Source: Moniliella sp. 'wahieum'
Lineage: Eukaryota; Basidiomycota; Moniliellomycetes; Moniliellales; Moniliellaceae
Direction: 5' to 3'
NCBI GenBank assembly: GCA_003971905.1
Contig: RSEE01000054.1
Span: forward strand, 372,001-436,000
Length of the DNA: 64,000 bases
The position numbers and the translations under genes were made by a program. Of the stretch, positions 18,101 through 63,687 are shown piece after piece; the first letter of the stretch is position 1, and each line of letters opens with the position of its first letter. The notes beneath the pieces were generated by a model, which had not been told where the DNA came from, did no database searches, and worked only from the letters and a program-made list of their open reading frames with translations.

Positions 18101-18700
18101 CCAAAGCGCTGCCATCACAACGTGAGATGTTGGCTTTGGGATTGGGACTGTATCCTGGGCGCCACCCGAAGAAGCCATCGCGGCGTCAATGCTCAGAATA
18201 TATCAACAGCAAACCGTTGTCCAGATAGATGAGTGTGTTTTGTTGTCTGCTGTCCTAAGGGGACTTGGGCCTGCTGGCTCCTCGACGGGGAGCAGTTGCA
18301 GCAAGGGGAAGAAGAGGTGGGACAAGGGGGACGGATGGATAAGAGGGAGGATTTCGGTGATGCTAAGGACGGTGGGTTCCGGTTTTGATGACGGGGAAAG
18401 TACGACTATTCTCACAATTCTCACGGTTCTACAGGTCTCATGGCGGCCATGCTGATATTAGGAGCTGTGGCCAGAAGTCGCCCCGATCGCCCCTCAACCC
18501 TTGTATTCGCCGTGCCAGAAAGGGAGGGTAAAGCCCGCCATCACCCGGGAAAGGGGAACATCGCTTACGAGCAATACAACAGCAACACGCCCCCCCCCCG
18601 CGCTCAGTCTCCTTAACAAAAGGGAGTTGAGGATGTTGACCGGTCAACCCCGGCGTTGTTGGAATTTCCCCTCCTGTCTAATCTCTATCCGACTGGTATA
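15143..18700. other. Region without a supported gene; possible gene remnants
   Basis: Short open stretches exist but none is long or recognised. The best hint of coding sequence is 16390-16495 on the plus strand, which reads ERKRKREHEDEDESEDDNED before a stop, resembling a nuclear acidic region. A second stretch at about 16798-16915 reads VIIGDGVRAQRYKITNCQG. A minus-strand stretch near 15360-15600 reads GQRVNIFGCKIYGGVHANVG. They do not join into one model even allowing one-base errors. A decayed gene or mobile element is possible. Base composition is less GC-rich than the flanking genes. Confidence 0.4.
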
Positions 18701-19302
18701 AACGTTGGCAAAGCGAAGCAGACGAAGCAACCGAGACGCCTGCGACTCAAGGCTGCAAAGCTCCGCGGCGCCAAAAGAATATGATCCACTGCGATATCAC
18801 TTGTTCGTATATGTATACTATCCAAATCCACCATCTGCCTCCCGTTCCTATATCTCACGTTTCGTTACTATCACATTAGTTCAAAAAGGGTGCCCGTTTT
18901 CCTTCTCACGCTCTTGGTCCATGTCAGATCCCCCCTGCTCGGATATACGTTCGATATACCCTCTGTTGGACGGGGTAGATACCCTTGGCGCACGGGTCGC
19001 TGCGCTCTGCGCGGGAGGCGGGGCTTTTGAACGTGTGTGGAAGCCTGTTGAGAGGCCTGGGAGACTGGTGCCATTCCGTTTGGCTGAACCCAACGTTGAA
19101 TAACGTATTCGTACGTTGAACGTATACGCGTGGAACGTGTGGAGAGTAGAAAACTGTGGACGCATGCTACTCACACGTGCATGTGATGCATGATGTCACC
19201 CGTGTCACATGACACAGGTCACAATCTCATTGCATTTTCAGGAGAGCCATCAGTGAGTGCATGAGATGCGTGACACTGTGACGGACCGCATGTCACCTGA
19301 CC

Positions 19303-19344
19303 GGTGACATGCGACATGTGACATGTGACATGTGACAGGTGATC
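19303..19344. repeat. Heptad array, TGTGACA type
   Basis: Six units in exact 7-bp register: GGTGACA, TGCGACA, three TGTGACA, GGTGATC. The TGTGACA unit is TG-TGA-CA, an odd palindrome with complementary arms. Related words (GTGTCAC, ATGACAC, AGGTCAC) precede it at 19195-19222. Confidence 0.85.
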
Positions 19345-19386
19345 ATCGTCAGCGCGTCAGCAATCATGTAATCACTATAGTACCTA

Positions 19387-19414
19387 GTTACTGGTTACCG
19401 GTTACCAGTTACCG
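19387..19414. repeat. Heptad array, GTTACCG type
   Basis: Four units at 7 bp: GTTACTG, GTTACCG, GTTACCA, GTTACCG. In the shifted register GGTTACC the arms GG and CC are complementary around TTA. A related run lies at 19705-19750. Confidence 0.85.
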
Positions 19415-20869
19415 GTTTCGCTCAGACCCTCAGACCTCCTTCGACTCATCGATCCATTACACAGTGAGCTGCGACGGCGACCGCCTATATAGGGCCCTAA
19501 GCACTACGCCCCACCCAGTATATAGTGTGTAGTATAGGATCAGTATGGGAGGAAGGATGGGAAGTGACACCAAGTCGGGAGGGTGGACGGGAAATCTGGC
19601 ATATATATATAGTGCACATAGTGCTACATGCTGAAAAGATGAGTGTGACGCGGGACGTCGGATGTGGCTGGCCCCCCTCTGATGAGAGTGACCCGGTGAT
19701 ATCTTCCCGGTTGCCAGTACCGGTTACCCTTGGTCACCACGGTAACCCTTCCATCAATGTGACGTTCAGGGTGTGGACCCCCTCTCTGCTATAGTGCGAC
19801 TCGGGAGCACTCGGCAATCTTATGGATCAGCTGCAAAGCAGCTCTGAAGTCAGACAAGGCGTGTGAAGCATGAAGCTTGAAGGGTGGAGCCACAAAAAAA
19901 ACCTTGAAGAAGCTCATTGAATATTGAAAACGTCTGAAGGGACAAGAGACGGACATCTCATTAGAAATGAGGGAGTTGGAGCGAGTAGTGCAGGGGGTGC
20001 GCAGCCTGCGAGTGCAATTGTTCCTCCCGGATAGGCGAGCGTCACCGATCAATCTGGGGCCGTGCAGGGGAACTGCAGCACTATACTCCTGCACTCTCTT
20101 CTCTCCTCTCGTCCGTGTCAGGCGTCAGGCGTCAGGCCTGCTGAGTGGTCGCCCAATAAAGCATCAGTGCATTAGCATATCTCTCCCTTTGTACGCCATC
20201 GCTTTCCTTCTGTGTCGTTTCATATCATTTGCAGAGCTTATTTTATATATTACGAGGCTCAAAGGATGGAAAAGAAGCACACACGCTTTTGAATAGTGAG
20301 GACACTATGGATATCTGAGTAATCTACAGCACCTATAAAAGCAAAGAACTACCGCATAGCGATGTACAGGCATCTGTGTCACAAATGATCATAATTGATG
20401 CATTGAAGATAAGAAGGGCAGGGAACATGATATAGAGAAAAAGGTAGAGAATCAATGAGATCAATAAGCGCAAGAGAAATTAATTGTGTAGAAGAGATAA
20501 ACCAGATTCGTGTGCGGATGAGAGCACAAGAAAGGGAGAGAGAGATACAATAAACGAAGAGGAAGGAGCAGCGTTAAAAAAAAGACGTCTCCGGTGTGTC
20601 CCACAGTTGAGGGCTATACACAAGATTCGAGGGAGATCATCATGTTGAGACCCGCGGTCCCAGACATAGTAGGCAAAAAGAAACTGTCAACGAATGACTA
20701 AGCTTGCTCCAATTTCCATTCTGCATTCTGTGTCTCTCGCTCTTCCCCTTCCTTTTGCTTCCGTTCTCTGCCATGCCTTCTGTTTCCTTCCACGAACGAA
20801 CTTGCCTTTCCCCTCGGCTTTGACAAGCACCTCATTACCCTATTTCCCCTTTTTGACCGTCGAAGAAGC

Positions 20870-21035
20870 CTCCATGTGTAGACTCTCCACCTGTTCGAAC
20901 CCATGCCTCTTCCAGATGGGGAAGAAGGGTTATATTACCCTAACCACCACCGTTATTGCGATTGCATTGCTCTGCCTTTCCAGAGGTTCACTATCCAAAT
21001 CCTTGGATTTCTGCGGTCTTACAGGAGACTATAGA
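20870..21035 (+). repeat. Dispersed repeat, copy 2 (plus orientation)
   Basis: This aligns with the minus strand of 440-605 through the shared blocks TTCGAACCC, AAGGGTTATAT, GCGATTGCATT, CCAGAGGTTC, CAAATCCTTG and CGGTCTTACAG. Both copies have substitutions and small indels relative to each other, which suggests old insertions. No flanking direct repeat is obvious. Confidence 0.6.
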
Positions 21036-21520
21036 ATTGGTACAAAAAGGACGGGAAATGCAGCAATCACTGACCGGGAAAACGAACAGAGCATAAGGAG
21101 CGGCGTATAAAAGAGCAGGAAGGAAAAGTCGCTGGTATCCCACTAATATTATATAGTGTCCTTTGGGCTAGTGTCACTCCCCTTCCTTCTTCCTCTTCTC
21201 TTCCACAGTCTGGGCCGGAGCCAGCTCCCTTTACTTCCTTCATCCAATGTATAACTGCACTTAGGACATCTTTGTGGGGAACGAGTGTCACGGTCCTCTT
21301 AACTAATCAGGGGATTCTTCTCACCACTCGTCTTCCCGCCGATCCTGTTCTCCCTTCTCCCACCAGTGCATCTTTGGCTTCCCTTGGTACTTGGTCTCAC
21401 TCGTATTCGCCCGACTCTTACAACAAGGGCCATTTTCATGACACCCGTCCCGGCATCACTAGTGACTCCACCCTCTCTCAGACCCCATCATCAAAATGTC
21501 CCTCGAAGCATGAAGTAAAC

Positions 21521-21537
21521 TGAGTACTGAGTGTTGA
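21521..21537. repeat. Heptad array, TGAGTAC type
   Basis: TGA triplets start at 21521, 21528 and 21535, exactly 7 bp apart (TGAGTAC, TGAGTGT, TGAGTAT). Confidence 0.65.
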
Positions 21538-21960
21538 GTATCTAAGTACTGGGTTGTCGTGTCCCAACACGTTTTAAGCATCGAGCAACGATAAACGGAA
21601 AACGTTAAACCCCAACACAGCTCTCCATTATCCGGGAACGAATGATGCACGTCCCAGCTATTCGCAAAAAAAAACCACATCACAGCAACCGCGCGGCGTG
21701 TCTGTATAATTTCTCTGGGGTTGGTTCTCATGTGTGCCCTCGTGCTCTGGCCATCGCAGCAAAACAACAGAGGGGTCGGAGCAAATCCGTTTATCGTGGC
21801 ATAGAACAAAAGGGATGGACAAGAGGCCGATGTGGAGGCCGAGACGGATTTTATATGAGTGGGTGTGGCGCATTATACACTGTGTTCTGAAGCTATTATG
21901 GCGCTGACTTTCTTGGGAGATATCAGGATCACCGATCACAAATGTTAATGATAGGCGCAT

Positions 21961-21988
21961 GGTGACCGGTGACCGGTGACCGGTGACC
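21961..21988. repeat. Heptad array, four perfect GGTGACC
   Basis: Four identical 7-bp units, each GG-TGA-CC. The unit centre is an odd palindrome and each junction (ACCGGT) is an even palindrome. Confidence 0.9.
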
Positions 21989-22170
21989 TGGGTCCGGGTG
22001 ATACAGTGATGCATTTGGAGAAAGCGCGAAAATCAGGGACACAGTTACCGAATAAGGAGTGATGTTAATGCATAACGCATGGTGGTGCATAGTGGGAAGT
22101 GGTCCCATAGGGTCAAAACACGGCTAGTGGCTGCCTATGTTGGGGAATGGAGGCGATTACTGTCTCGCCG

Positions 22171-22198
22171 TGATGCATGATGCATGATGCATCATTGA
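22171..22198. repeat. Heptad array, TGATGCA type
   Basis: Three perfect TGATGCA units followed by TCATTGA, keeping the 7-bp register. In the register CATGATG the arms CA and TG are complementary. A GGTAACC pair follows at 22215-22228. Confidence 0.85.
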
Positions 22199-22321
22199 TG
22201 CTGGGGTGGCAGCTGGTAACCGGTAACCGCCGGCGTATTGGCCTGTGGTGGATACTTGGGTTCCGCGCTTGGCATATCGCGACACGTCCAGCTATACCGC
22301 TCATGGCTCCAAAGAGACCTT

Positions 22322-22356
22322 AAGGCCTAATGTCCTAAGGCCTAAGGCTTAGGCCT
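22322..22356. repeat. Heptad array, TAAGGCC type
   Basis: Units AAGGCCT, AATGTCC, TAAGGCC, TAAGGCT and TAGGCCT run in 7-bp register. Junctions form AGGCCT and CCTNAGG words. Confidence 0.8.
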
Positions 22357-22552
22357 AATGGCACGCTGTAGGGCCAAACAATCACGTCCTCACATGTTTT
22401 AAATCACACGTGTCACACATGTCACAACGCCTCTTCTTAGAAACCCTCAGACAGAAGGGGTCTTGTTGTTCTGAACACCATATGTCTTTTCTCATCGATA
22501 TCATTTCGCCTCCGGCCTGAGCCTTTGGCATCAGGCCCCCAGGGACCTGACC

Positions 22553-22627
22553 TCAGGCCTCATCGATATCCACCTCATCGACCTCATCGACCCCATCGAA
22601 TCGGCCTCATCGATCTCATCGAGATCG
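22553..22627. repeat. CCTCATCGA 9-bp repeat
   Basis: CCTCATCGA and close variants (CCCCATCGA, TCTCATCGA) recur about six times, mostly 9 bp apart. It keeps the TCA core of the heptad arrays with a longer spacing. Confidence 0.7.
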
Positions 22628-22912
22628 TCTTCTCTCTTCAGCGCATTCACAAATTGTCTCGGCGTTGTTTGCCCAACCGGAGCTTGAGGGATCAGAAAAG
22701 GGGGATATGACAGGGTGGACAGGGTGGGACTTGCAGCGGGGCCGAGGGGGGCCGAGGAGTGGATACCCCACTCAGAGGTTGTGGAAGCCGATGCATCACT
22801 GATGTGTCAAGTACAACGCTAATAGTAACGTTCGATGGACGTCGGACTTCGAGAGAGCTTAATGCCAAAAGTTGAAGAGGCGCTGAAGCTTTGAAGGTTG
22901 GATCAAGCCTGA

Positions 22913-22940
22913 AGTCACTAGTCACTAGTCACTAGTCGAC
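22913..22940. repeat. Heptad array, AGTCACT type
   Basis: Three perfect AGTCACT units and one AGTCGAC in register. Arms AG and CT are complementary around TCA, and each junction is ACTAGT. Further copies lie at 27830-27850 and near 28130-28155. Confidence 0.88.
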
Positions 22941-23480
22941 CTTGACTTCATCAAAGACCTTCACGCTCTTGACGTGTCCTGTTCCTACTCAGTATGTCTA
23001 ATTGGTTCTTTCATCCTGTGTGTGGTCCTTATACCCGCGCCTATTATTACTGAAGCGGAGAGTCCACACTACGATTTACTTGAAAGCCTAGGAACCTCTT
23101 TAACTATTTTCAGCACCTCGCCCTGTGCTCCTGCTACGAAGAGATCGCGATCCCTCCGTCAACAGATTCCGGGTGCACAGAGCGCGAAAATGTTTGGGGG
23201 AAAATAATGCAGGACTTTGGTGAAGGGCAGATGCGAGGAAAACAAAACATTAATAAGAGGCAGTCATGTGGCCACACCCCCGTAGAAAATGATGGGTAAT
23301 CCGGTAGGGTAGTCTCCCGGTAACCCTCGGTAAGCCCAAAGCGCCATAATACCGGAAACCTTGTGAACAAACCATGAATCACATCCAGAAATGTATATCA
23401 TCCTTTTACCTCGTCGACAACCCAAACGGCAGTCCTTTCCTCTTCTCCATGGAGGTGCATATATGTGAGGGTGGTGAAGC

Positions 23481-23508
23481 TGAAGCTTCATGCATGAAGC
23501 TTGCAGCA
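23481..23508. repeat. Heptad array, TGAAGCT type
   Basis: TGAAGCT, TCATGCA, TGAAGCT and TGCAGCA in 7-bp register, alternating TGA and TCA cores. Confidence 0.7.
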
Positions 23509-23713
23509 GAGAGGGTGAATAAGTGTGCCCTAAGGCTTCCCTACCATTAGTAGTTGGACAGTCGCGCTTTTGCGTTGGCTGGTTTGTGAAATGTGAATGG
23601 CCTCGGTCACCTGGGGCCTGACCGGGACCGCAGATGTGGCCAAATCTCCCTCCCTCCCTCCCCCATCCCTTTATGTGGTTCCTTCCATTCAATGTCATAA
23701 TATGCAGGCGTTG

Positions 23714-23867
23714 TTGAATATTCAGCTGAAGCTTCAACTTGAAGCCTGAACCTGAGGCCCATCAGGGCTCAGCGCTGTTGAGGCTCAACGCTCAACGAGC
23801 GCTCAGCTGAGCCTCATGCCTCACGCCTCAGCCTGAGGCCTCAGGCTCCAACAGGCTCCAAGGCCGT
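23714..23867. repeat. Mixed heptad ladder
   Basis: TGA/TCA triplets start at 23715, 22, 27, 34, 40, 47, 53, 62, 69, 79, 85, 92, 103, 108, 114, 121, 128, 134 and 141 (offsets from 23700). The usual step is 6 or 7 bp. The bases around the cores change from AAG/CTT to GAG/CTC to CCTCAGG along the ladder, so the spacing outlasts the unit sequence. Confidence 0.75.
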
Positions 23868-23912
23868 TACATGCCGTTGCAGGAGGTTACATGCTACAGG
23901 TGACCGGTGGCT

Positions 23913-23984
23913 GTTGAACGTTGAACACGTTGAACGTTGAACGTTGAACGTACTTGTGACATGTATGACATGTGACATGATGAC
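23913..23984. repeat. Heptad array, GTTGAAC then TGACATG
   Basis: GTTGAAC units at 23913, 23920, 23936 and 23943, then TGACATG units at 23957, 23966 and 23973. Two different odd-palindrome types abut within 70 bp. Confidence 0.85.
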
Positions 23985-24210
23985 AATTGATTGTGATTAT
24001 CACGGTAGTCACCGTGATAAGCTTCTATGACCCCTGTACCACATATACAAAAGCGTTAACTACTCTTTGAGAGACCAGCTTGGACAAGATGAGACTGTTC
24101 CTGGAAGTAATTTATTGGTGAAACCCGAGACCTTAAGGCTTTTCAACGTTGAACGTATAGTAATGAGAACGTTGACGATGTTGAGAACATTGACTCCGCC
24201 TCACACAGCC

Positions 24211-24346
24211 CTCAACGTCCTCAACCCTCGGCCTCAACTCTCAGAACTCAATCTCAACCCTCAGGCCTCAAGGCCTTAACGTTCAACCGTTCAACTTGAA
24301 CCCTCAACCCTCTCAGGCCTCAGGCCTTAACCCTCAATCGTTGACA
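24211..24346. repeat. Long heptad ladder, CTCAACC/CTCAGGC types
   Basis: From 24234 to 24342 sixteen TCA/TTA/TGA triplets follow one another at steps of 7, 7, 6, 7, 7, 8, 7, 8, 6, 7, 9, 7, 7, 7 and 8 bp. The units are CTCAACC, CTCAGGC, CTCAAGG, GTTCAAC and similar. Confidence 0.8.
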
Positions 24347-25629
24347 CATTATAAGACGAGGAAGTGCTATTGGATGATATTTTTAGCGCCTTGGCAGCCT
24401 TTTCGCTTGTGCTTCTGTTGGGGGGGTAGTGCTAGGCTTCACCTGCTCGTTATAAGATTTTTTAGTTTATAGTACGGATGGCACCATACTGCATCGGTCG
24501 CTGTTACCCTGTATGGCTGCCATACGTGTGGGCGGAAGCCGTTGTGCACACACCAATATGAGAGTTTCTTTACATATAAAAAGGGGTAAACGTTTAGGAC
24601 GTTTAGGGGCTTAGATGCAATTGGCAGAGAGACAGCGTAGCAGCAAGTCGGTATCGCTCCAATCTCGATAATTATATCTCATCTGCATTATTTTAGTCGC
24701 CACCAAGTCCAGACTCGCTGGTGGTGGAACCTTCACAACTGAACTACCAATCGGACGCGGAATGGGGTGGCGGCAATGGGGCTATAATAAAATGTATGGT
24801 GTTTCCATCAGGCCGGCACCAGGTGTGGCATGTGAGCGACGAACCATTTGAATAGCAGACGAGATCTTAGATCTTACTGCATAAAATCACTAGTGACTTC
24901 TGCACTTTTCCCCCCAGGTCTTACTGGTAGAATATATGGTGTTGTTTGCCGGTAGCCGCGCTTGTGCATCATTGACGAACTTTTGCTCATGTCATCATGT
25001 CATATGTCAGGCTCAGGCGCATCCCCGCTGAGACTCTTTTTCAGAGAAGGCTACTGTAGAACGATAGTGCGTTATCGTTTAGTACCGCTTGTGGTCGGTT
25101 CGACAAAATAGTTCGGACGGCCCAAAATCAAGAATAAGTGTTAGCCACAATAAGGCACGGTTCAAGAACCGAAGTAGTCATGATCCCTGTCATGTTCCCT
25201 GTCAACGGAGGTAGGTTCGGCAGGATCGCCCTTCTCCTGGTTTATGCTGTCTTTCGGTGCCTTGTTTGATGTCAAACGGACATGTACTTGTAATTCGGTT
25301 CAGGGAAATGCGACAGAAAATCGGCATACTGGCAATGGTTATAATGATTCGATGACGCGAATGAGGTATGGGTATAGAACAGAGCCATTCTACTATTATT
25401 TTTATTCAAGTTCTCTCGCTCTCGCTTCACATTTGCAGCAGTGCTCCAGCTCCATCTGAGCAACATCGAGACTCTCGTTCGGCACCGCTTCTCACTTGGG
25501 ACTCTTCGAGTCGTTCGGATACATCATTGTTGTCTCTCGATTCCAAACAGGGCATCATTGATGCATGGATATAGGAGGAGGACCACTGGGCCTACGGCCC
25601 GCCCAGCTTTTTGGTGCTTTGTCGCCACC

Positions 25630-25683
25630 TTAGCCACCGTTCCCCCTTCGCCACCGTAGCCACCGTTCCCCCGTCGCCAACAC
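25630..25683. repeat. 27-bp tandem duplication
   Basis: Two adjacent copies of a 27-bp unit beginning AGCCACCGTTCCCCC and ending in TCGCCACCGT (second copy diverging at its end). Confidence 0.65.
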
Positions 25684-26045
25684 CGACATCGAAATAATAT
25701 CACGGATACTTGCTGGCTGCGGGTGGCGTGAAATGTGGTACATTCATTGCATGTTTTCCCCCTATTCACGGTATACTGCTGGCCATAGGCCATTCTTACG
25801 GCGTGTATAGTCGTATGTGTCTTTGGCTTTTCGATGCAAAGTGTGTATATCGAAATTGTTTTGCTTTCAGGTGTCCCCCACGACACGCTGAGCGGGGGGA
25901 GGCTCTGGCACATATGTAACCTCTTTCTATTTCGTGCAAACATATACGATTCGGACCTGTAGAGAGAGCCGGTCTGGTACACGGCACTGGGTATATACTC
26001 ACAGTGCCACTCAGTGTACACTGGTCCTGAAAAGCAACTTCCCGC

Positions 26046-26087
26046 TTCAACGTTCAACGTAAACGCGTTACGCGTTAACATTCAACC
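26046..26087. repeat. Heptad array, TTCAACG to GTTACGC
   Basis: Six units in exact register: TTCAACG, TTCAACG, TAAACGC, GTTACGC, GTTAACA, TTCAACC. The unit type changes twice and returns without losing the 7-bp phase. Confidence 0.85.
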
Positions 26088-26218
26088 TGCAAAGGACCTT
26101 CCACGTACAAGCCGGGGTATCTGTGGCGCATGTGGGGGAAAGGAGGGGAGCGTGCACAGGTTACTAGTTACAAGCTGTTACATGTTACTGCTATCGTATA
26201 GTTTTGTGTGCGGACGCG

Positions 26219-26239
26219 TGTGACATGTGACATGCGACG
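26219..26239. repeat. Heptad array, TGTGACA type
   Basis: TGTGACA, TGTGACA, TGCGACG in register, the same unit series as at 19310-19337, 7 kb away. GTTAC-rich words lie just before it at 26159-26190. Confidence 0.78.
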
Positions 26240-26431
26240 CGTGTGATTGTGACGATCGGCGATGTGACCGACACCATGCATGATGCACTGACTCCACCGG
26301 TGACCGGAGAGAAGTTTATTAATGTGTAACGTTTAACCGGGTAAGCTTGAGCCAGGACGGCAACAGGCGGGAACCAGTATTTCGCAACGGGTAATGGTTA
26401 CCGGTTAAGCTTTAAGTAACACCCGTTTTCA

Positions 26432-26480
26432 GGTGGCTGGTGGCTGGTGGCTGGTGGCTGGTGGCTGGTGGCTGGTGGAC
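26432..26480. repeat. Heptamer array, six GGTGGCT
   Basis: Six perfect copies of GGTGGCT followed by GGTGGAC. The period is 7 bp, as in the other arrays, but the unit is not a near-palindrome and has no TCA/TGA core. Confidence 0.9.
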
Positions 26481-26499
26481 GTGGGCCACCCAGGAACAG

Positions 26500-26527
26500 G
26501 CTTGAAGCTTGAAGCTTCAATATTCAG
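26500..26527. repeat. Heptad array, GCTTGAA type
   Basis: GCTTGAA, GCTTGAA, GCTTCAA, TATTCAG in register. The CTTGAAG register is an odd palindrome, and junctions form AAGCTT. Confidence 0.85.
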
Positions 26528-27176
26528 TCCATCTACCTCCCTTTTGGGGGTGTTGGGATGGTCAATAGCCACCACGAGCAACCCATTGCCAGTGCCAAGA
26601 AGCTTCAAGCCTTCGAGCTTCGGCGGTGGAGACAGCTACGATACGCGATACACAGACACCCTGTGCCCGCCATGCGTGGGATGTATGACCTGTGTTTACA
26701 TATGTTCTTCTTCATTTTTGGCTGGCACAGGCCAGGGGCCCCATCACCACTTGAGACAAAACCACCCCTCCAAAACAAACATAGGGACCCCTATACTGTT
26801 CCTACCTGGTGCCTACAGGTGCCTGTAGTGCTGGAGCCGAGCAACTAACCGCGTACGGGTTGCACGTTGCCTGCGGGTCCGGGAGCCCTAGCCGTGTCTA
26901 TTGGAGTTCTGGGCTTGGCGGCGCTTTCCTCTGTGGACGGGTCCGCAGACCCTACTGCCCTACTGCAGTCACCGCGAAGGGCCACACCCTGCCACTCCAT
27001 GTAAAAGGACGAAAAACAACCACCCAGTTAACTATTGGCAACACAATGGACGTTACGTGTTCCTCTATGAAACAGGCTGTCATGCAGTCATGTATTCGAA
27101 CTCAAAGCTTAAGCGCTTGGGGCTTCAACGTGAACGTACGTGCCACAGAGAAGAAGTCTGTGGCATGCTCTGCGAG

Positions 27177-27232
27177 CGCTCACCCGCTCATCCGCTCAGC
27201 GCTGAGGCTCAGCGCTCATGCGCTCATGGGCC
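27177..27232. repeat. Heptad/octad ladder, GCGCTCA type
   Basis: TCA/TGA triplets start at 27180, 27188, 27196, 27203, 27209, 27216 and 27224, in GCGCTCA-like units of 7-8 bp. AGCGCT palindromes form at junctions. Confidence 0.7.
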
Positions 27233-27829
27233 CAGCTTTGGAAACTTCAACCGCTTCAACACATCATACATCATGCGTCGTCATGCATCACCTAAACCAT
27301 TCAATATTCCACGTTCGACCTATGCTCTCCGTATCCATATCCATTCCCCTTCGCCTTAGGCCTTACGGATGCGCCGGTCCATCAGTGGCTGCTCCTAATA
27401 GTGATCAGCGTCTAGAAACAACAGTGGCACTTATCGAAATCATTAACCGATGTGAGTGACATCTATCCTATATCTTACCCCCATTGGCGCAGAGAAAACG
27501 TGAATGTGTATCGTCAGCGTGTCAGCGAACTTATGAGCGCAGGACCATCTGTGGCATCAAACTGGTTTAGCGGCGCCGGTAGCCCAAACCCGGATCCATT
27601 TCCGATGCATTCCTTCCAATATTCCGTCCAAGATGACAGGAATATTCTCTGGCCTCTGTAGCTCATACCTACAATGCAATGTACCATCAACTGCCTGCTC
27701 TCTGGTCTTCTCTACACCATCAATAACCAAATGCTGATGGGTGGCAAAAGAAGAAACGTCAGCGCGTCAGCGTCAAGCTTCAAGTCGATTCGCCCCAATA
27801 GTTACTAGGTATTCATAGTCGCTATAGTC

Positions 27830-28042
27830 AGTCACTAGTCACTAGTCACATCGGTCCCGCTGGTCACACTAGTCACTTCTTGATTAGACTAGTCGCTCGC
27901 TAGGATCTAGTCAGCACTCGTACGTACTCAGTACTCGATACTCAGTGAGGTACTCAGGTGCTCGAGAGTACTCAGGCCTCAGGCCTCAGGACTCAGGTAC
28001 TCAGCAACCAAGCTTCTTCAAGCTTCAAGCTTCAAGCTTTAA
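27830..28042. repeat. Heptad arrays AGTCACT, ACTCAGT, CCTCAGG and CTTCAAG in succession
   Basis: AGTCACT repeats at 27830-27850. TACTCAG-type units then start near 27926 (TCA/TCG at 27928, 27935, 27942), CCTCAGG types follow (27972, 27979, 27986, 27993), then CTTCAAG types (28018, 28025, 28032). Four odd-palindrome classes follow one another within about 210 bp. Confidence 0.82.
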
Positions 28043-28685
28043 GCCCAAAACCACTAGGTTCTAGACTCTAGTCACTTAAGTTACTATTTACTAGTCATTT
28101 GCCAAAGCGACCAAACTCGATCTCGTCGATAGTCACTCTAGTCACTAGTCACTTGCTTGCAGTCACATGTCACAGCGACCTGTCTTCCATCTGGAGCGAG
28201 TGGATGGAGTCACAGTGGGGCTAGGCGGAACCCGCGGAGCCCCGGGTTAAATACCGATAAAACCACATCAACATAGGAAACGCGAGAAGTATAAGAAGCT
28301 GGGAGATAAATAGTAAGAGAAGTTGAGAATGTTGAGAGAAGCTGATGCGCTGATGTCGATGATGTCGATGATGGTCTATTGCAGTAACATGTAACAGTCA
28401 ATGTTCATGTTTTTAACGTGATAGCCTAACCGCTTGACGCTACAAAGCCTGCAGATGGTAGCCTCTGGTAGGCCGTCGTATAGGCTGGGGGGAGGGGGGG
28501 GGGGACTGATGCACTGATGAGACGCGGCGAGCTGCGCGGCGTATGCAAAACCAAGGCGCTATTAGCTACTACTTTCTAGTAGCTGTAGTTACTGATGGTT
28601 ACTAGTTGCTAGTGACCGGTGACCTTCTCTAACTTTTCACTAGTGAGACTGTGACATGTGTGACTAGTGACTGCATTATTAGCAC

Positions 28686-28713
28686 GTTACGCGTTACGCG
28701 TTAGGCCTTAGGC
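28686..28713. repeat. Heptad array, GTTACGC to TTAGGCC
   Basis: GTTACGC, GTTACGC, GTTAGGC, CTTAGGC in exact register. The array drifts from the CGTTACG to the CCTTAGG type. Confidence 0.85.
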
Positions 28714-30144
28714 CGGCCGGCTGAGGTGTCTCCGAGCCCTGTCGGAAAATAGGCGGCATGGTTCCCGGTACGCTTAGACCCTTAGGCTTCAGGAAAGGCC
28801 TTAGGTATCTTGGCATAGAGAAACGCAGTGTCACATTGCCGCCGGCACGGCGTCACGCGCCACTGCGCCACCACCCAATACCCAGAAAAAGGTCGTCTTC
28901 TGGATGGCTTTTTTCAAGCTTTTGATGACCCTTGCCTCGGGGGTTCTGCGGTCACGCTCAAGGCTCACCGGTCGACAGTCATCCGCCACCAGTCACACGG
29001 TCACGGGCTACGCATCCTACATTGCATGTCACATTGTAGCAGATCCCAGACTAGTCGCGCCTATCCCACACCTCCATCATGTCACAGGGATCACATATGT
29101 TACACTCGGCGTCACATGCGTCACATGTCACAGCCATCCTGTCGTCACCACGTTACTATTTGCTAACTGCTTGCCCTGTCCATGTCACTATCACTAGTCA
29201 CTGTCACACTGTTGCACGAAGCTGCTGGTACGCTCGGTGGGCGGTGGTGCACTGGAAACTCGAGGGAACATAGTGAACATGGGAACGTACTCGAACGAAC
29301 CGTCGTGATGTTCTGCCTGGGCACAGCAGTGCGTCAGTGACCGAGCGATCCGCCTACCGCTGAGGCTCAGCGGTGATGCTCAACTCTCAATCTCACGCCT
29401 CCAACCTTCAAGCTGCAAGCTTCCCGGCCAACATTTCGCCCCAAGCGCACCCCTTTCGACATACTACGTAGCGGGAATACAAAGCCGTAAGCGGCAACAG
29501 GCAAGTACGGGTAAGGGGTACGCGCCACGCCCTGCACCGCAACGCCCCAGGCCGCTCAGTCTGAGCACTCAGTCAGTACCGGAAGTACTCGACCTGAGGC
29601 CTGTGGCCAAAGTGCTAACCGGTGCCACCATCCACAACACTCTCCCCTGCCCTGGCCGGCACACAACACACAATCCAGCACACGCCGCGCTGTCACCAAG
29701 TCACAAGTCACATGTGAGCCGGCGAGGCGCCTGAAGCTTGAAGGCAGGCCCACGTCCCTGCCCTCCCAGTCGCCCTACCTGACCACTCGGCACCACAGTA
29801 CCTCCTTCCTCGTTCCCACCACCACCACCACCTCCTCTCTTACTTCGCTCCTCGCTCCTCCACTCGACCCTACACTCCCGTTCGAATTGGCTCCCGCCAG
29901 CGATTGGCTACAGCAGAACGCAGCGGCACCTTATACACCCACCGCTGCCTTTCTCGCTCCCTTGTCACTCGTTGGGGTCTGCTCTTCGTCTCCCTTTCTT
30001 TCACTCTACCCTTGCCGCTGTTTCGACTCGTCTCGTCTCGTCCCTACCCGACCCGTCTCTTCTTCTCTCGTCCCGTCCCGGCCCGTTCCGTCCCTTCTTG
30101 TCTTATCTCGTACTTTCTTGTTTCCCATTTTTCATTTTGTTCGC

Positions 30145-32473
30145 GATGACGTTTTCGACTTCTCCTGCTCTCGCCACTTCAACTCTTGGCATTACCCCCA
30201 TGGCACATCTCTGCAAGGTACCCCTCCCGTCTCTCCTCGGACTTCGCCCTCCCCAGACACGCCGGGCGAATCCAAGGTCTCCAAGTCGACCACTCGCTCC
30301 CCCTCGTCCTCTCGCAAGGCTCAATCTGCCGGCCAACGCAAGAGATCGTCTATCGGTGGGGCCACCGCGTCCGCCAACCAGGCACCTGCACAATGTGAGC
30401 AGGAAGACGATGACCTGTCCACTACCGTCTCCATGGCATGTACTTTTTGCCGCCAACGGTACGTTTCTCGTGTTTGGCTATTCATTGATTTTTTACAATC
30501 ACACCTACTAACCGTCTTTCTTAACCCTTTTCGTCATTGTAGCAAGATCAAATGCAACAGCGCCAAGCCGGTCTGCAGTGCTTGCCACAGCTATGGCCGC
30601 AAGTGCGTTTACCAGGCGGTTCACGGCTGAAGCCAACGCGGCATTGCGCCTTGCCAAGCGCACTCGTCGAGCCCGCCTGGCTGCCTCTTAATCCTGTGGC
30701 TCCGTCGCTGCAGTCGTGCTTGTTAGCCAAAAGGTTGTGGCTAACGTGACCACTCGGGTGCACCAGCACACAGCGCACTCAACCAGATTGACGAGTCGAT
30801 GCAGGTCTGGCCTTGTACTCAGACAATGGCGAATCGCTCTCGCATCTTCACCACGCCGTTCGCTCGCCCGACGATGGTGTGGTGAACCGTGCCTCCACCC
30901 CAGTCAACTTGGATGAACTTCTTACCGTCGATTCCGATGTGCAGCCGTCAAGTCGAGGTGAATATACCTCGCTTCACCCTATGTACGCGATTCCAGGCGA
31001 GGCCAGTGCCGCCACCCCGTTTGCTCCCAGAGCTCATCATCAAGCTCAGAGTTACTCCCACTCCGCTGCCCCATCTATTCCATGTGGTAAGCTAGAGGGA
31101 CCCGTAGTACCTCCCAACGAAATCCTCAGCTTGTCGGGGTACGTGCCTTCGGTCAACCTTGGCAAGCCGATGTGCCTCCTGTCCCGTTACCGTCTCCTCT
31201 CGATTCGAGGTCTCCAAGCAACATGGGTTCGGCCATGCCCACCTTTATGCCCGTGTGGCCCGATACGCCGAATGCGGTACCGTTTACGTCCTCCAAACAC
31301 CGTTTCCGGATCGCCATTGCCCATGCTGTTTACCCCGCAGCCCTCGATGGGACGGACGAAGGAGTGGGAGGGTACTGCTTCCGAGACATGGTGGAGTGCC
31401 CCCTGCCCTTCGCGTTCGTTGCCTTCCTCCTTCTCTGCTCTATCGGGACCGGGACCGGACTCCATGTTCTGCGACCCCAACAACGTGTTGCGCCAGAACC
31501 GGTCGTGGATGGCGAGCAACCTAGGTATGGCAAACTCCCCGCTGCGAATTCCTCGTCCGAGGGTGGCACGGAGACCTCTTCATCAGCGGTGGGAGCCAAT
31601 GGCAGCAAGTGACCCAGCTAGGCTCTTGTGTTGATCTTGACCTCTCCCTCCTGCCGGAGAAGATGGGGGAGGCCATGTCGACGTCCTCTGCTGCCCCCAT
31701 GCAAGGGCTGTCTCAAGCTTGGACCAACAGCCACCCGGGTTGGCAAGCTGGTGCAGGGTTTACCCTCCCGAACACGGAGGCTACGACGGAAACGGTTGCG
31801 ACGGAGATCAAGTCGAGGGAAGCGATGGAGTGGGACTTGTCCCGCACTCCTCCACTTTCTCCCTCGCTTTCTCCGTGGCCGTCGGAGGCAGGGACGGTTG
31901 ATCAATCGGTAAGCACTCGGCGGGAGCTGCGCCGGCCCGTGGTTGTCAATCCTCGCCTATACCATGTGATTGAGGTCATGAAGCAGATCCAAACCCCCGC
32001 GCAAGTGAGTCCGCTGGCTCGCCGCCGCCTAGCACGGCAAGCGCAGTCGACCGCTGCACACTGGACCGGTCCGAGCGTTGGTCCGGGTTCGAACGACGGA
32101 TCAAGTGTGCCAACCAAGACGGGCAGCACCTTGCTCGGCGATCCCAACCAACAGTCAGGCGCAGGGTTCTGTTGGAGTTGGACATGGCTGATTTGCTACC
32201 TAGCTCAACCCGTCTCAGTGGAGCACACCGTGCCTCGTTGAGCGTGGGCTGAGCTTTTGTCCCCTTTACTCCAACCACGGATGATCTGCTCACCCCCCCT
32301 CGCCTGAACGGCTGCCGGCTGGGTCAGATTATGCCCCCCCTCCCATACTGGGGCTCATGGAATCGTCCTGCATGCCCACACAGGAGGAGCTGCTTGTGTC
32401 GGAGTTTATGGTGGACGACCCCTTTGCCATGTCGCTTAATCTTGGTGATCAAGCTATGTCGGCGGGGGTATGA
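30145..32473 (+). CDS. Zn(II)2Cys6 binuclear-cluster transcription factor
   Basis: This is a fungal-specific DNA-binding regulator acting in the nucleus. The start is taken at 30145 (MTFSTSPALATSTLGITP). A Ser/Pro-rich stretch leads to the cluster ACTFCRQR, then an intron (30459-30542, GTACGT, branch CTAAC near 30510, TTGTAG), then KIKCNSAKPVCSACHSYGRK and CVY. All six cysteines have the usual spacing. Further pieces follow in changing frames: AEANAALRLAKRTRRARLAA, VEYTSLHPMYAIPGE-like text, QTPAQVSPLARRRLARQ, LLELDMADLLPSSTRLSG and a C-terminus ESSCMPTQEELLVSEFMVDD ending MSAGV, TGA at 32471-32473. No fungal-TF middle-homology domain is recognised. Target genes cannot be inferred. Confidence 0.8.
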
Positions 32474-63558: not shown

Positions 63559-63687
63559 TCATCATCGATCATGGATCATAGAGATCATCCGTTAGCCGGG
63601 TCATGCGTCACGCGTCACACTCATCATGCACCATGCGATGAGCCAGAAGGATGGCATGATCATCGATCATGCATCATGCATCATGCG
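63559..63687. repeat. Heptad arrays, TCATGCA/TCATCGA/GTCACGC types
   Basis: TCA triplets start at 63562, 63569 and 63576; 63601, 63608 and 63615; and 63660, 63667, 63674 and 63681, each set exactly 7 bp apart. TGCATCA and TCGATCA units are seen. The rest of 63380-64000 holds no supported gene. Confidence 0.8.

Follow-up and report, generated by a model that had tools for sequence, protein, structure and literature searches.

Arrays of TNA triplets separated by four-base palindromes, with spacers mostly set by the flanking bases, in the genome of Moniliella sp. 'wahieum'

The 64,000-nucleotide stretch analyzed here (hereafter the window) lies on a 453-kb contig of Moniliella sp. 'wahieum', whose assembled genome comprises 69.5 Mb in 223 contigs. 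A Zn2Cys6 domain at 30391-30630, together with kinesin and dynactin domains elsewhere in the window, identifies the DNA as eukaryotic, and the Zn2Cys6 domain identifies it as fungal; no Rfam matches and no tRNA genes were found within the window. Adjoining the Zn2Cys6 domain lies an interval, 18700-29880, with few long open frames and a G+C content of 47-58%, mostly lower than that of the remaining window. This interval is rich in short arrays in which TNA triplets alternate with palindromic four-base spacers at a step of 7 bp, and these arrays are the subject of this report. An earlier note on this DNA had described them as tandem repeats, over about 11 kb, of a 7-bp odd palindrome (a word self-complementary except at its central base) with the core T[G/C/T]A.

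The excess on which that description relied is real. In the interval, exact 7-bp tandems occupy 175 positions, against a mean of 0.8 and a maximum of 4 in 50 dinucleotide shuffles, and odd-palindromic 7-mers with a TnA core number 141 (shuffle mean 42.2, maximum 53), of which pairs spaced by 7 bp occur 26 times (mean 0.1, maximum 1). Odd palindromes with other cores are near expectation: AnT 44 (42.8), CnG 42 (46.5) and GnC 58 (45.8). To the left and right of the interval, TnA odd palindromes show no excess (33 against 43.5 and 81 against 91.9) and pairs at distance 7 number 0 and 1, while exact 7-bp tandems of any kind are modestly raised (19 against 1.9 and 22 against 2.7). Written as TNA-(pal4-TNA)n, where pal4 is a 4-bp palindrome, the interval contains 59 chains, 41 of which keep the same TNA throughout; the rest of the window contains 12. 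TAA centers occur in 5 of these 41 chains beside the TCA, TGA and TTA centers already recognized, hence a core of TNA. Among 7-bp arrays of the window, Tandem Repeats Finder gives the highest copy number to (GGTGGCT)6.7 at 26432-26478, which falls outside this grammar.

We extended the analysis to 20 ten-kb pieces with round coordinates from 17 other contigs, chosen blind to local content. Counts below refer to these pieces (the 200-kb sample), to the pieces plus the window (264 kb), or to both of these plus the two 10-kb flanks of the window (284 kb); a single assembly underlies all of them. In the 284-kb set, 243 of 458 pairs of identical TnA triplets with a 7-bp spacing have a palindromic 4-mer between them; for the 15 other XnY classes, the same test gives palindromic fractions of 0.030-0.085. 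All four triplets contribute (TCA 104/213, TGA 91/151, TTA 26/45, TAA 22/49). Among spacings of 5 to 17, a strong signal is seen at 7 and its multiple 14 alone, spacings 8 (18/184 against 0.063) and 9 (7/242 against 0.016) being slightly above chance; longer palindromic spacers are rare (six bases, 7/242; eight bases, 0/145). When word lengths of 2-5 and even spacers of 2-8 were scanned, TnA with a four-base spacer reached 8.5 times expectation and all other combinations at most 2.5 times. The spacer itself is free: all 16 possible palindromes occur in the 284-kb set, from AGCT (35), ACGT (24) and TCGA (22) down to TATA (1). Likewise, periods 4-14 screened in the 264-kb set show a clear excess of symmetric units at period 7 only, where 91 of 173 arrays are fully odd-palindromic, against 9.7% of random units.

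The symmetry, the spacing and, TAA centers aside, the core of the original description stand, and its choice of unit does not. Isolated odd palindromes are not enriched (TnA 656/8529, or 0.077; AnT 731/9089, or 0.080), and for this reason we reject the odd palindrome as unit: a TNA followed by a 4-bp palindrome forms the unit, (TNA-pal4)n, and the product made is TNA-pal4-TNA. The period of 7 is confirmed, but long tandems are the lesser part, as 114 of 207 arrays in the 284-kb set are shorter than two full units. Nor is the unit constant within an array, since neighboring spacers may differ while TNA stays the same (for example, at 28685-28712).

An 8-bp variant, in which four-base words such as TCAG, TGAG or CTCA surround a palindromic 4-mer, shows a small excess (16/117 and 18/114), and TNA is contained in 24 of 34 cases. 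It occurs in the window near 19250, 19350, 27760, 27990 and 28505, and at other loci.

The spacer is no fixed word, but is mostly set by the two bases that flank the triplet. Writing L and R for the two bases to the left and right of TNA, and rc for reverse complement, the relationship takes the form L-TNA-R -> L-TNA-rc(L)L-TNA-R (left rule) or L-TNA-R·rc(R)-TNA-R (right rule). At least one end obeys this flank rule in 122 of 153 single-spacer chains of constant TNA, with the left and the right rule satisfied 78 times each; when spacers were shuffled among chains in 1000 trials, a mean of 20.2 and a maximum of 37 obeyed. Within the interval 18700-29880, 35 of the 41 constant-TNA chains obey at one end at least. 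Array ends carry the same signature: on either side, arrays most often extend 0 or 2 bases past the terminal TNA (207 arrays, 284 kb), and the commonest array length, 12 bp (53/207), corresponds to L-TNA-rc(L)L-TNA or its mirror image. Of the 11 chains with mixed spacers around one TNA, 8 obey at both ends, with a first spacer rc(L)L and a last spacer R·rc(R) (for example, CG-TGA-CGCG-TGA-TGCA-TGA-TG at L011); in two more only the right end agrees, and in one neither end does. The center, too, changes in five other mixed chains. A chain can be written in general as L-TNA-(rc(L)L-TNA)a-(R·rc(R)-TNA)b-R, and chains from the window are listed in Table 1. The surroundings of 87 single events, searched for a longer target motif, showed C raised at +1 and G at -9, with A at -5 and A or T at +7, both likely remnants of further units, and nothing else.

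Table 1. Chains of TNA triplets and palindromic spacers in the window
Position	Chain	Remark
19317..19337	TG-(TGA-CATG)2-TGA-CA	
19393..19406	GG-TTA-CCGG-TTA-CC	
19871..19882	TGA-AGCT-TGA-AG	right-templated
21519..21532	AC-TGA-GTAC-TGA-GT	
21961..21988	GG-(TGA-CCGG)3-TGA-CC	equals (GGTGACC)4
22215..22228	GG-TAA-CCGG-TAA-CC	
22334..22347	CC-TAA-GGCC-TAA-GG	
22551..22562	CC-TCA-GGCC-TCA	left-templated
22913..22933	AG-(TCA-CTAG)2-TCA-CT	
23913..23926	GT-TGA-ACGT-TGA-AC	
23929..23949	GT-(TGA-ACGT)2-TGA-AC	
23966..23977	TGA-CATG-TGA-CA	right-templated
26047..26058	TCA-ACGT-TCA-AC	right-templated
26066..26077	CG-TTA-CGCG-TTA	left-templated
26219..26232	TG-TGA-CATG-TGA-CA	
26396..26416	GG-TTA-CCGG-TTA-AGCT-TTA-AG	mixed; first spacer from left flank, last from right
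26501..26526	CT-TGA-AGCT-TGA-AGCT-TCA-ATAT-TCA	center changes within chain
27207..27218	GC-TCA-GCGC-TCA	left-templated
27830..27848	AG-(TCA-CTAG)2-TCA	
27972..27990	(TCA-GGCC)2-TCA-GG	
28016..28043	CT-(TCA-AGCT)3-TTA-AG	
28140..28153	AG-TCA-CTAG-TCA-CT	
28613..28624	TGA-CCGG-TGA-CC	right-templated
28685..28712	CG-TTA-CGCG-TTA-CGCG-TTA-GGCC-TTA-GG	mixed; left spacers from CG, right from GG
29121..29132	TCA-CATG-TCA-CA	right-templated
29732..29743	TGA-AGCT-TGA-AG	right-templated
63658..63685	GA-TCA-TCGA-TCA-TGCA-TCA-TGCA-TCA-TG	mixed; outside 18700-29880

The arrays are dense in the interval first noticed but are not confined to it: 18 of the 20 ten-kb pieces contain at least one TNA-pal4-TNA. 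In the 200-kb sample, the 4-mer between identical TNA triplets at distance 7 is palindromic in 161 of 303 cases (AnT 5/134, CnG 21/379, GnC 21/504), against mean expectations of 5.4, 4.0 and 17.8 such pairs under Markov models of order 1, 3 and 5. Extrapolated to 69.5 Mb, this amounts to about 56,000 TNA-pal4-TNA steps per genome, a density that could be slightly raised by the fact that the sampled contigs each hold at least one GGTGACC array somewhere. Three copies of GGTGACC have 127 genome-wide matches (overlaps counted) and the reversed control has 2. As controls we used loci picked for one long array, namely 67 prokaryotic loci (GGTGACC x4) and nine viral contigs (CTTGAAG x4). Single arrays therefore do exist in other organisms; with the seeding family removed, the palindromic fraction falls to 6/176 in the prokaryotic DNA (506 kb) and 3/107 in the viral contigs (51 kb), and two or more further kinds of array occur at none of the 67 prokaryotic loci and in one of the nine viral contigs (L086, with two). 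We confirm the earlier observation as real, genome-wide and stricter than first described.

Long open frames, taken as a rough stand-in for genes, are poor in arrays. In the 20 pieces and the window, density per kb is 0.15 within frames of at least 300 codons and 1.21 outside them; with the threshold set at 150 codons, the values are 0.35 and 2.21. An insertion of 7 bp shifts the reading frame, so selection against it in genes could suffice to explain this scarcity.

Subtelomeric paralogs differ by the same 7-bp steps. Five subtelomeric copies are 99-100% identical and contain 20 TNA-pal4-TNA sites each; three further copies are more distant, with alignable parts 90-99% identical. At two neighboring TCA sites, the copy on contig C151 reads AG-TCA-CTAG-TCA (a difference of +14), whereas copies of the C39/C135 type and the C82 copy have AG-TCT and AG-TCA there and lack CTAG-TCA; the CTAG of C151 is the spacer that the left rule predicts from the flank AG. 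The C72 copy has one CTAG-TCA unit more than C151, and GTAC, GGCC, ACGT and AGCT arrays also vary in length between paralogs. A query of 1.4 kb, the only one used for this purpose, found no second haplotype.

How might such arrays arise? We tentatively propose, with somewhat less than even confidence, that they are products of a TNA-directed fold-back with a double strand switch, each adding 7 bp as a micro inverted triplication. A growing or broken 3' end, ...L-TNA, would turn at TNA, which is self-complementary except at N; exactly two bases, L, would then be copied as rc(L). A second turn at the outer edge of L would allow L-TNA to be copied again, followed by R, giving L-TNA-rc(L)-L-TNA-R. 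The same act on the other strand would give L-TNA-R-rc(R)-TNA-R, so that left and right products should be equally common. As the product would hold two TNA sites, it could be used again, yielding arrays that resemble tandem odd palindromes with a dyad axis every 3.5 bp. The 3.5-bp dyad spacing stressed in the earlier note would be a consequence of the flank rule and need not be a cause, and the note's passing suggestion of a hairpin-templated product would prove right. In this scheme the 7-bp steps would be gains. Three features call for more than chance pairing, namely how often the steps occur, their constant two-base reach and the preference for T and A; they suggest a protein with a symmetric TNA site. 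For a mechanism of base pairing only, CNG or GNC should be no less suitable. That this protein is a dedicated or domesticated DNA-processing enzyme, which would recognize T-N-A symmetrically, make the two-base fold-back copy, and have written the extrapolated complement of micro inverted triplications so as to shape much of the intergenic DNA, is a more speculative and rather doubtful extension.

The closest published parallel is found in yeast lacking Rad27 (FEN1), in which small inverted triplications (DUP/INV/DUP) arise; in the authors' model, a 3' flap anneals at a palindromic junction or folds on itself, and the template is then switched twice, the second time back to the first template, a switch that the authors call unresolved (PMC13334657). 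The arrays described here share the direct-inverted-direct order, and the order only, in the 122 chains that obey the flank rule, but their segments measure 5/2/5 bases instead of about 148/160/148 bp (PMC13334657). Breakpoints of the yeast events favor nucleosome midpoints and Okazaki junctions, with no triplet specificity in the portions of that study considered here (PMC13334657); by comparison, our arrays have a fixed step of 7 bp and, by extrapolation, tens of thousands of copies per genome. By analogy, each array may be a miniature of a small inverted triplication with TNA as its turning point.

Several observations weigh against the fold-back proposal. The published triplications are about 148 bp long, not 5 (PMC13334657), and base pairing leaves the TNA specificity unexplained. 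Neither flank is matched in 31 of the 153 single-spacer chains. Of 276 TNA pairs with different centers, 76 are palindromic as well (41 combine TCA with TGA), and these count against the proposal because a simple direct copy does not yield them; they could represent another product of that turn, one that is perfectly inverted. Between paralogs, the 7-bp steps appear compatible with gain or loss, and the +14 of C151 could reflect a single step and a subsequent 14-bp duplication. A clean 7-bp duplication in C72, ATGACAT, has the core GAC rather than TNA, the paralog difference of one unit at CGC-TCA has the spacer ACGC, one base off the rule, and further differences include an 8-bp duplication and numerous indels of other sizes. 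No 7-bp insertions following the rule were seen by eye in 40 copies of R1, a 233-bp element (the query and 39 others, 93-98% identical to it), and the seven-base gaps present among 19 repeat pairs aligned from the sample all depart from the rule.

R1, located at L018:6225-6456 and L031-L070, is a dispersed repeat, these 40 copies having been scored out of 676 first-look candidates. It has TG..CA ends, a 5-bp duplication in the one copy checked by eye, and a variable GGT microsatellite inside, features as found in a solo long terminal repeat (LTR) or a small LTR element.

The nearest alternative to the fold-back proposal is a transposase-like cut with hairpin opening. The arrays would then be footprints of a mobile element, or of a transposase-like enzyme cutting at a symmetric site NNTNANN, each insertion and excision adding exactly 7 bp: a 5-bp target duplication (TNANN or NNTNA) would be joined by way of a hairpin in the flank, whose opening two bases from the tip would leave two palindromic (P-like) bases. 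This would account for the predominance of direct TNA duplications with the same center among palindromic pairs (243 same, 76 different) and for the 12-bp arrays, which consist of a 5-bp direct repeat and two bases complementary to its end; free arms around a fixed T and A also resemble transposase target preferences. PIF/Harbinger transposases form a class with TNA targets, and both PIF/Harbinger and IS5-type elements produce TNA target duplications. The arrays have the direct TNA duplication in common with these elements, but their spacers follow the flank, not fixed element ends. Six-frame genome searches at E 0.001 found no DDE_Tnp_4 (PF13359), with introns ignored and a control that matched one of 14 genomes, and no MULE transposase; hAT gave no match either, but carries little weight as its control also matched nowhere. 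Moreover, excision footprints usually vary in length, and the step observed here is fixed at 7. Self-comparison of the sample revealed several short repeats, whose ends were viewed unsystematically. We consider this explanation unlikely, though worth keeping in mind.

Another conceivable origin is ordinary replication slippage on chance odd palindromes, favored by hairpins as in CNG triplets; slippage as such had been entertained in the earlier note. Units self-complementary except at their center, and copy numbers varying by 7 between paralogs, are what it would produce. However, the supposed seeds, isolated odd palindromes, are not enriched, and CNG, GNC and ANT cores, which should form hairpins equally well, show nothing. 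Plain slippage accounts neither for the emergence of 12-bp arrays nor for the flank rule, and more than half of the arrays fall short of two units; it is already disfavored, and we give it a small probability. Two related schemes were tried and rejected. Exact tandem duplication of a 7-bp palindrome as the sole process does not agree with the many arrays below 14 bp and with ends at defined phases. A two-step model, in which a 7-bp duplication is followed by palindrome correction, calls for uncorrected TNA duplications, which are not in excess (TnA 19/458, CnG 32/537, GnC 45/715, AnT 24/197).

A slightly smaller probability still goes to the chromatin or protein platform also suggested at the outset, in which a complex would read TNA every 7 bp and selection would maintain the intergenic arrays. 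The strong bias outside long open frames and the high density in the 11-kb interval are in line with such a platform, although frameshifts alone could account for gene avoidance. A platform predicts a preferred spacer or none, not one derived from the flank, and the occurrence of all 16 palindromes, like the reverse complement and copy of the TNA-flanking bases, lies outside its predictions. An assembly or sequencing artefact, conceivable as only one assembly was used, is very improbable given a rule specific to TNA and to spacing 7, found mostly outside long open frames, and recurring at 20 sites in each of five near-identical subtelomeric copies, against palindromic fractions of 6/176 and 3/107 in the prokaryotic and viral controls.

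Other known systems resemble the arrays in part. CNG trinucleotide repeats are head-to-tail odd palindromes that form hairpins with one N.N mismatch per unit. The arrays share this tandem form, but their unit is 7 and its sequence is set by the flank, and CnG, in the sample, is not enriched as TnA is. Quasipalindrome-associated template-switch mutations involve strand switching on an existing imperfect inverted repeat. Here strand switching, as proposed, would be common to both, whereas the palindrome and the direct copy appear at the triplet; quasipalindrome correction was rejected on the same uncorrected TNA duplications, which do not exceed those with other cores. Heptanucleotide microsatellites, like part of the arrays, consist of head-to-tail 7-bp units and change by one unit (PMC5427490). 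In contrast to them, the arrays have no common unit, often fall short of two units, combine symmetry with a flank rule, and may place different units side by side.

Repeat families are usually defined by a shared sequence. Here, the family is an operation on whatever sequence is present: TNA is duplicated and the fold-back of its two neighboring bases is placed between the copies. No repeat class known to us is defined in this way, by what is done with its flanking bases, and no description of such repeats appeared among the matches listed from the openly licensed full-text literature. On the more speculative reading of a dedicated or domesticated enzyme, the fungus would have an insertion mutator directed by sequence, with a product derived from the flanking bases and not from a donor. 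If the steps were gained as proposed, an error of replication or repair would be specific to a triplet and always reach two bases, tandem repeats would be born from unique DNA, and the genome would hold a record of thousands of events from which the rules of template switching could be read directly. We could match the mutation process to which the arrays point to none so far described.

The same DNA contains further repeats. A repeat about 200 bp long has old copies in the window at 20868-21031 and 433-599, and two near-identical copies are present in L015; genome-wide, 40 matches, itself included, were scored of 162 candidates. A 26-bp tandem repeat block at 25621-25679 of the window has relatives at the unlinked positions L018:8047-8207 and L008:733-931. 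Finally, 5.8S rRNA genes were found at 14 places, on contigs C2, C6, C21, C33 (two), C37, C39, C41, C83, C89, C103, C137, C178 and C195, a listing that also names locus L082, and in several sequence variants (120-149 bits). Ten of the 14 lie within about 17 kb of a contig end, the end distance of those on C41, C89, C137 and C195 not having been judged; positions and variants suggest dispersed subtelomeric copies of ribosomal DNA.

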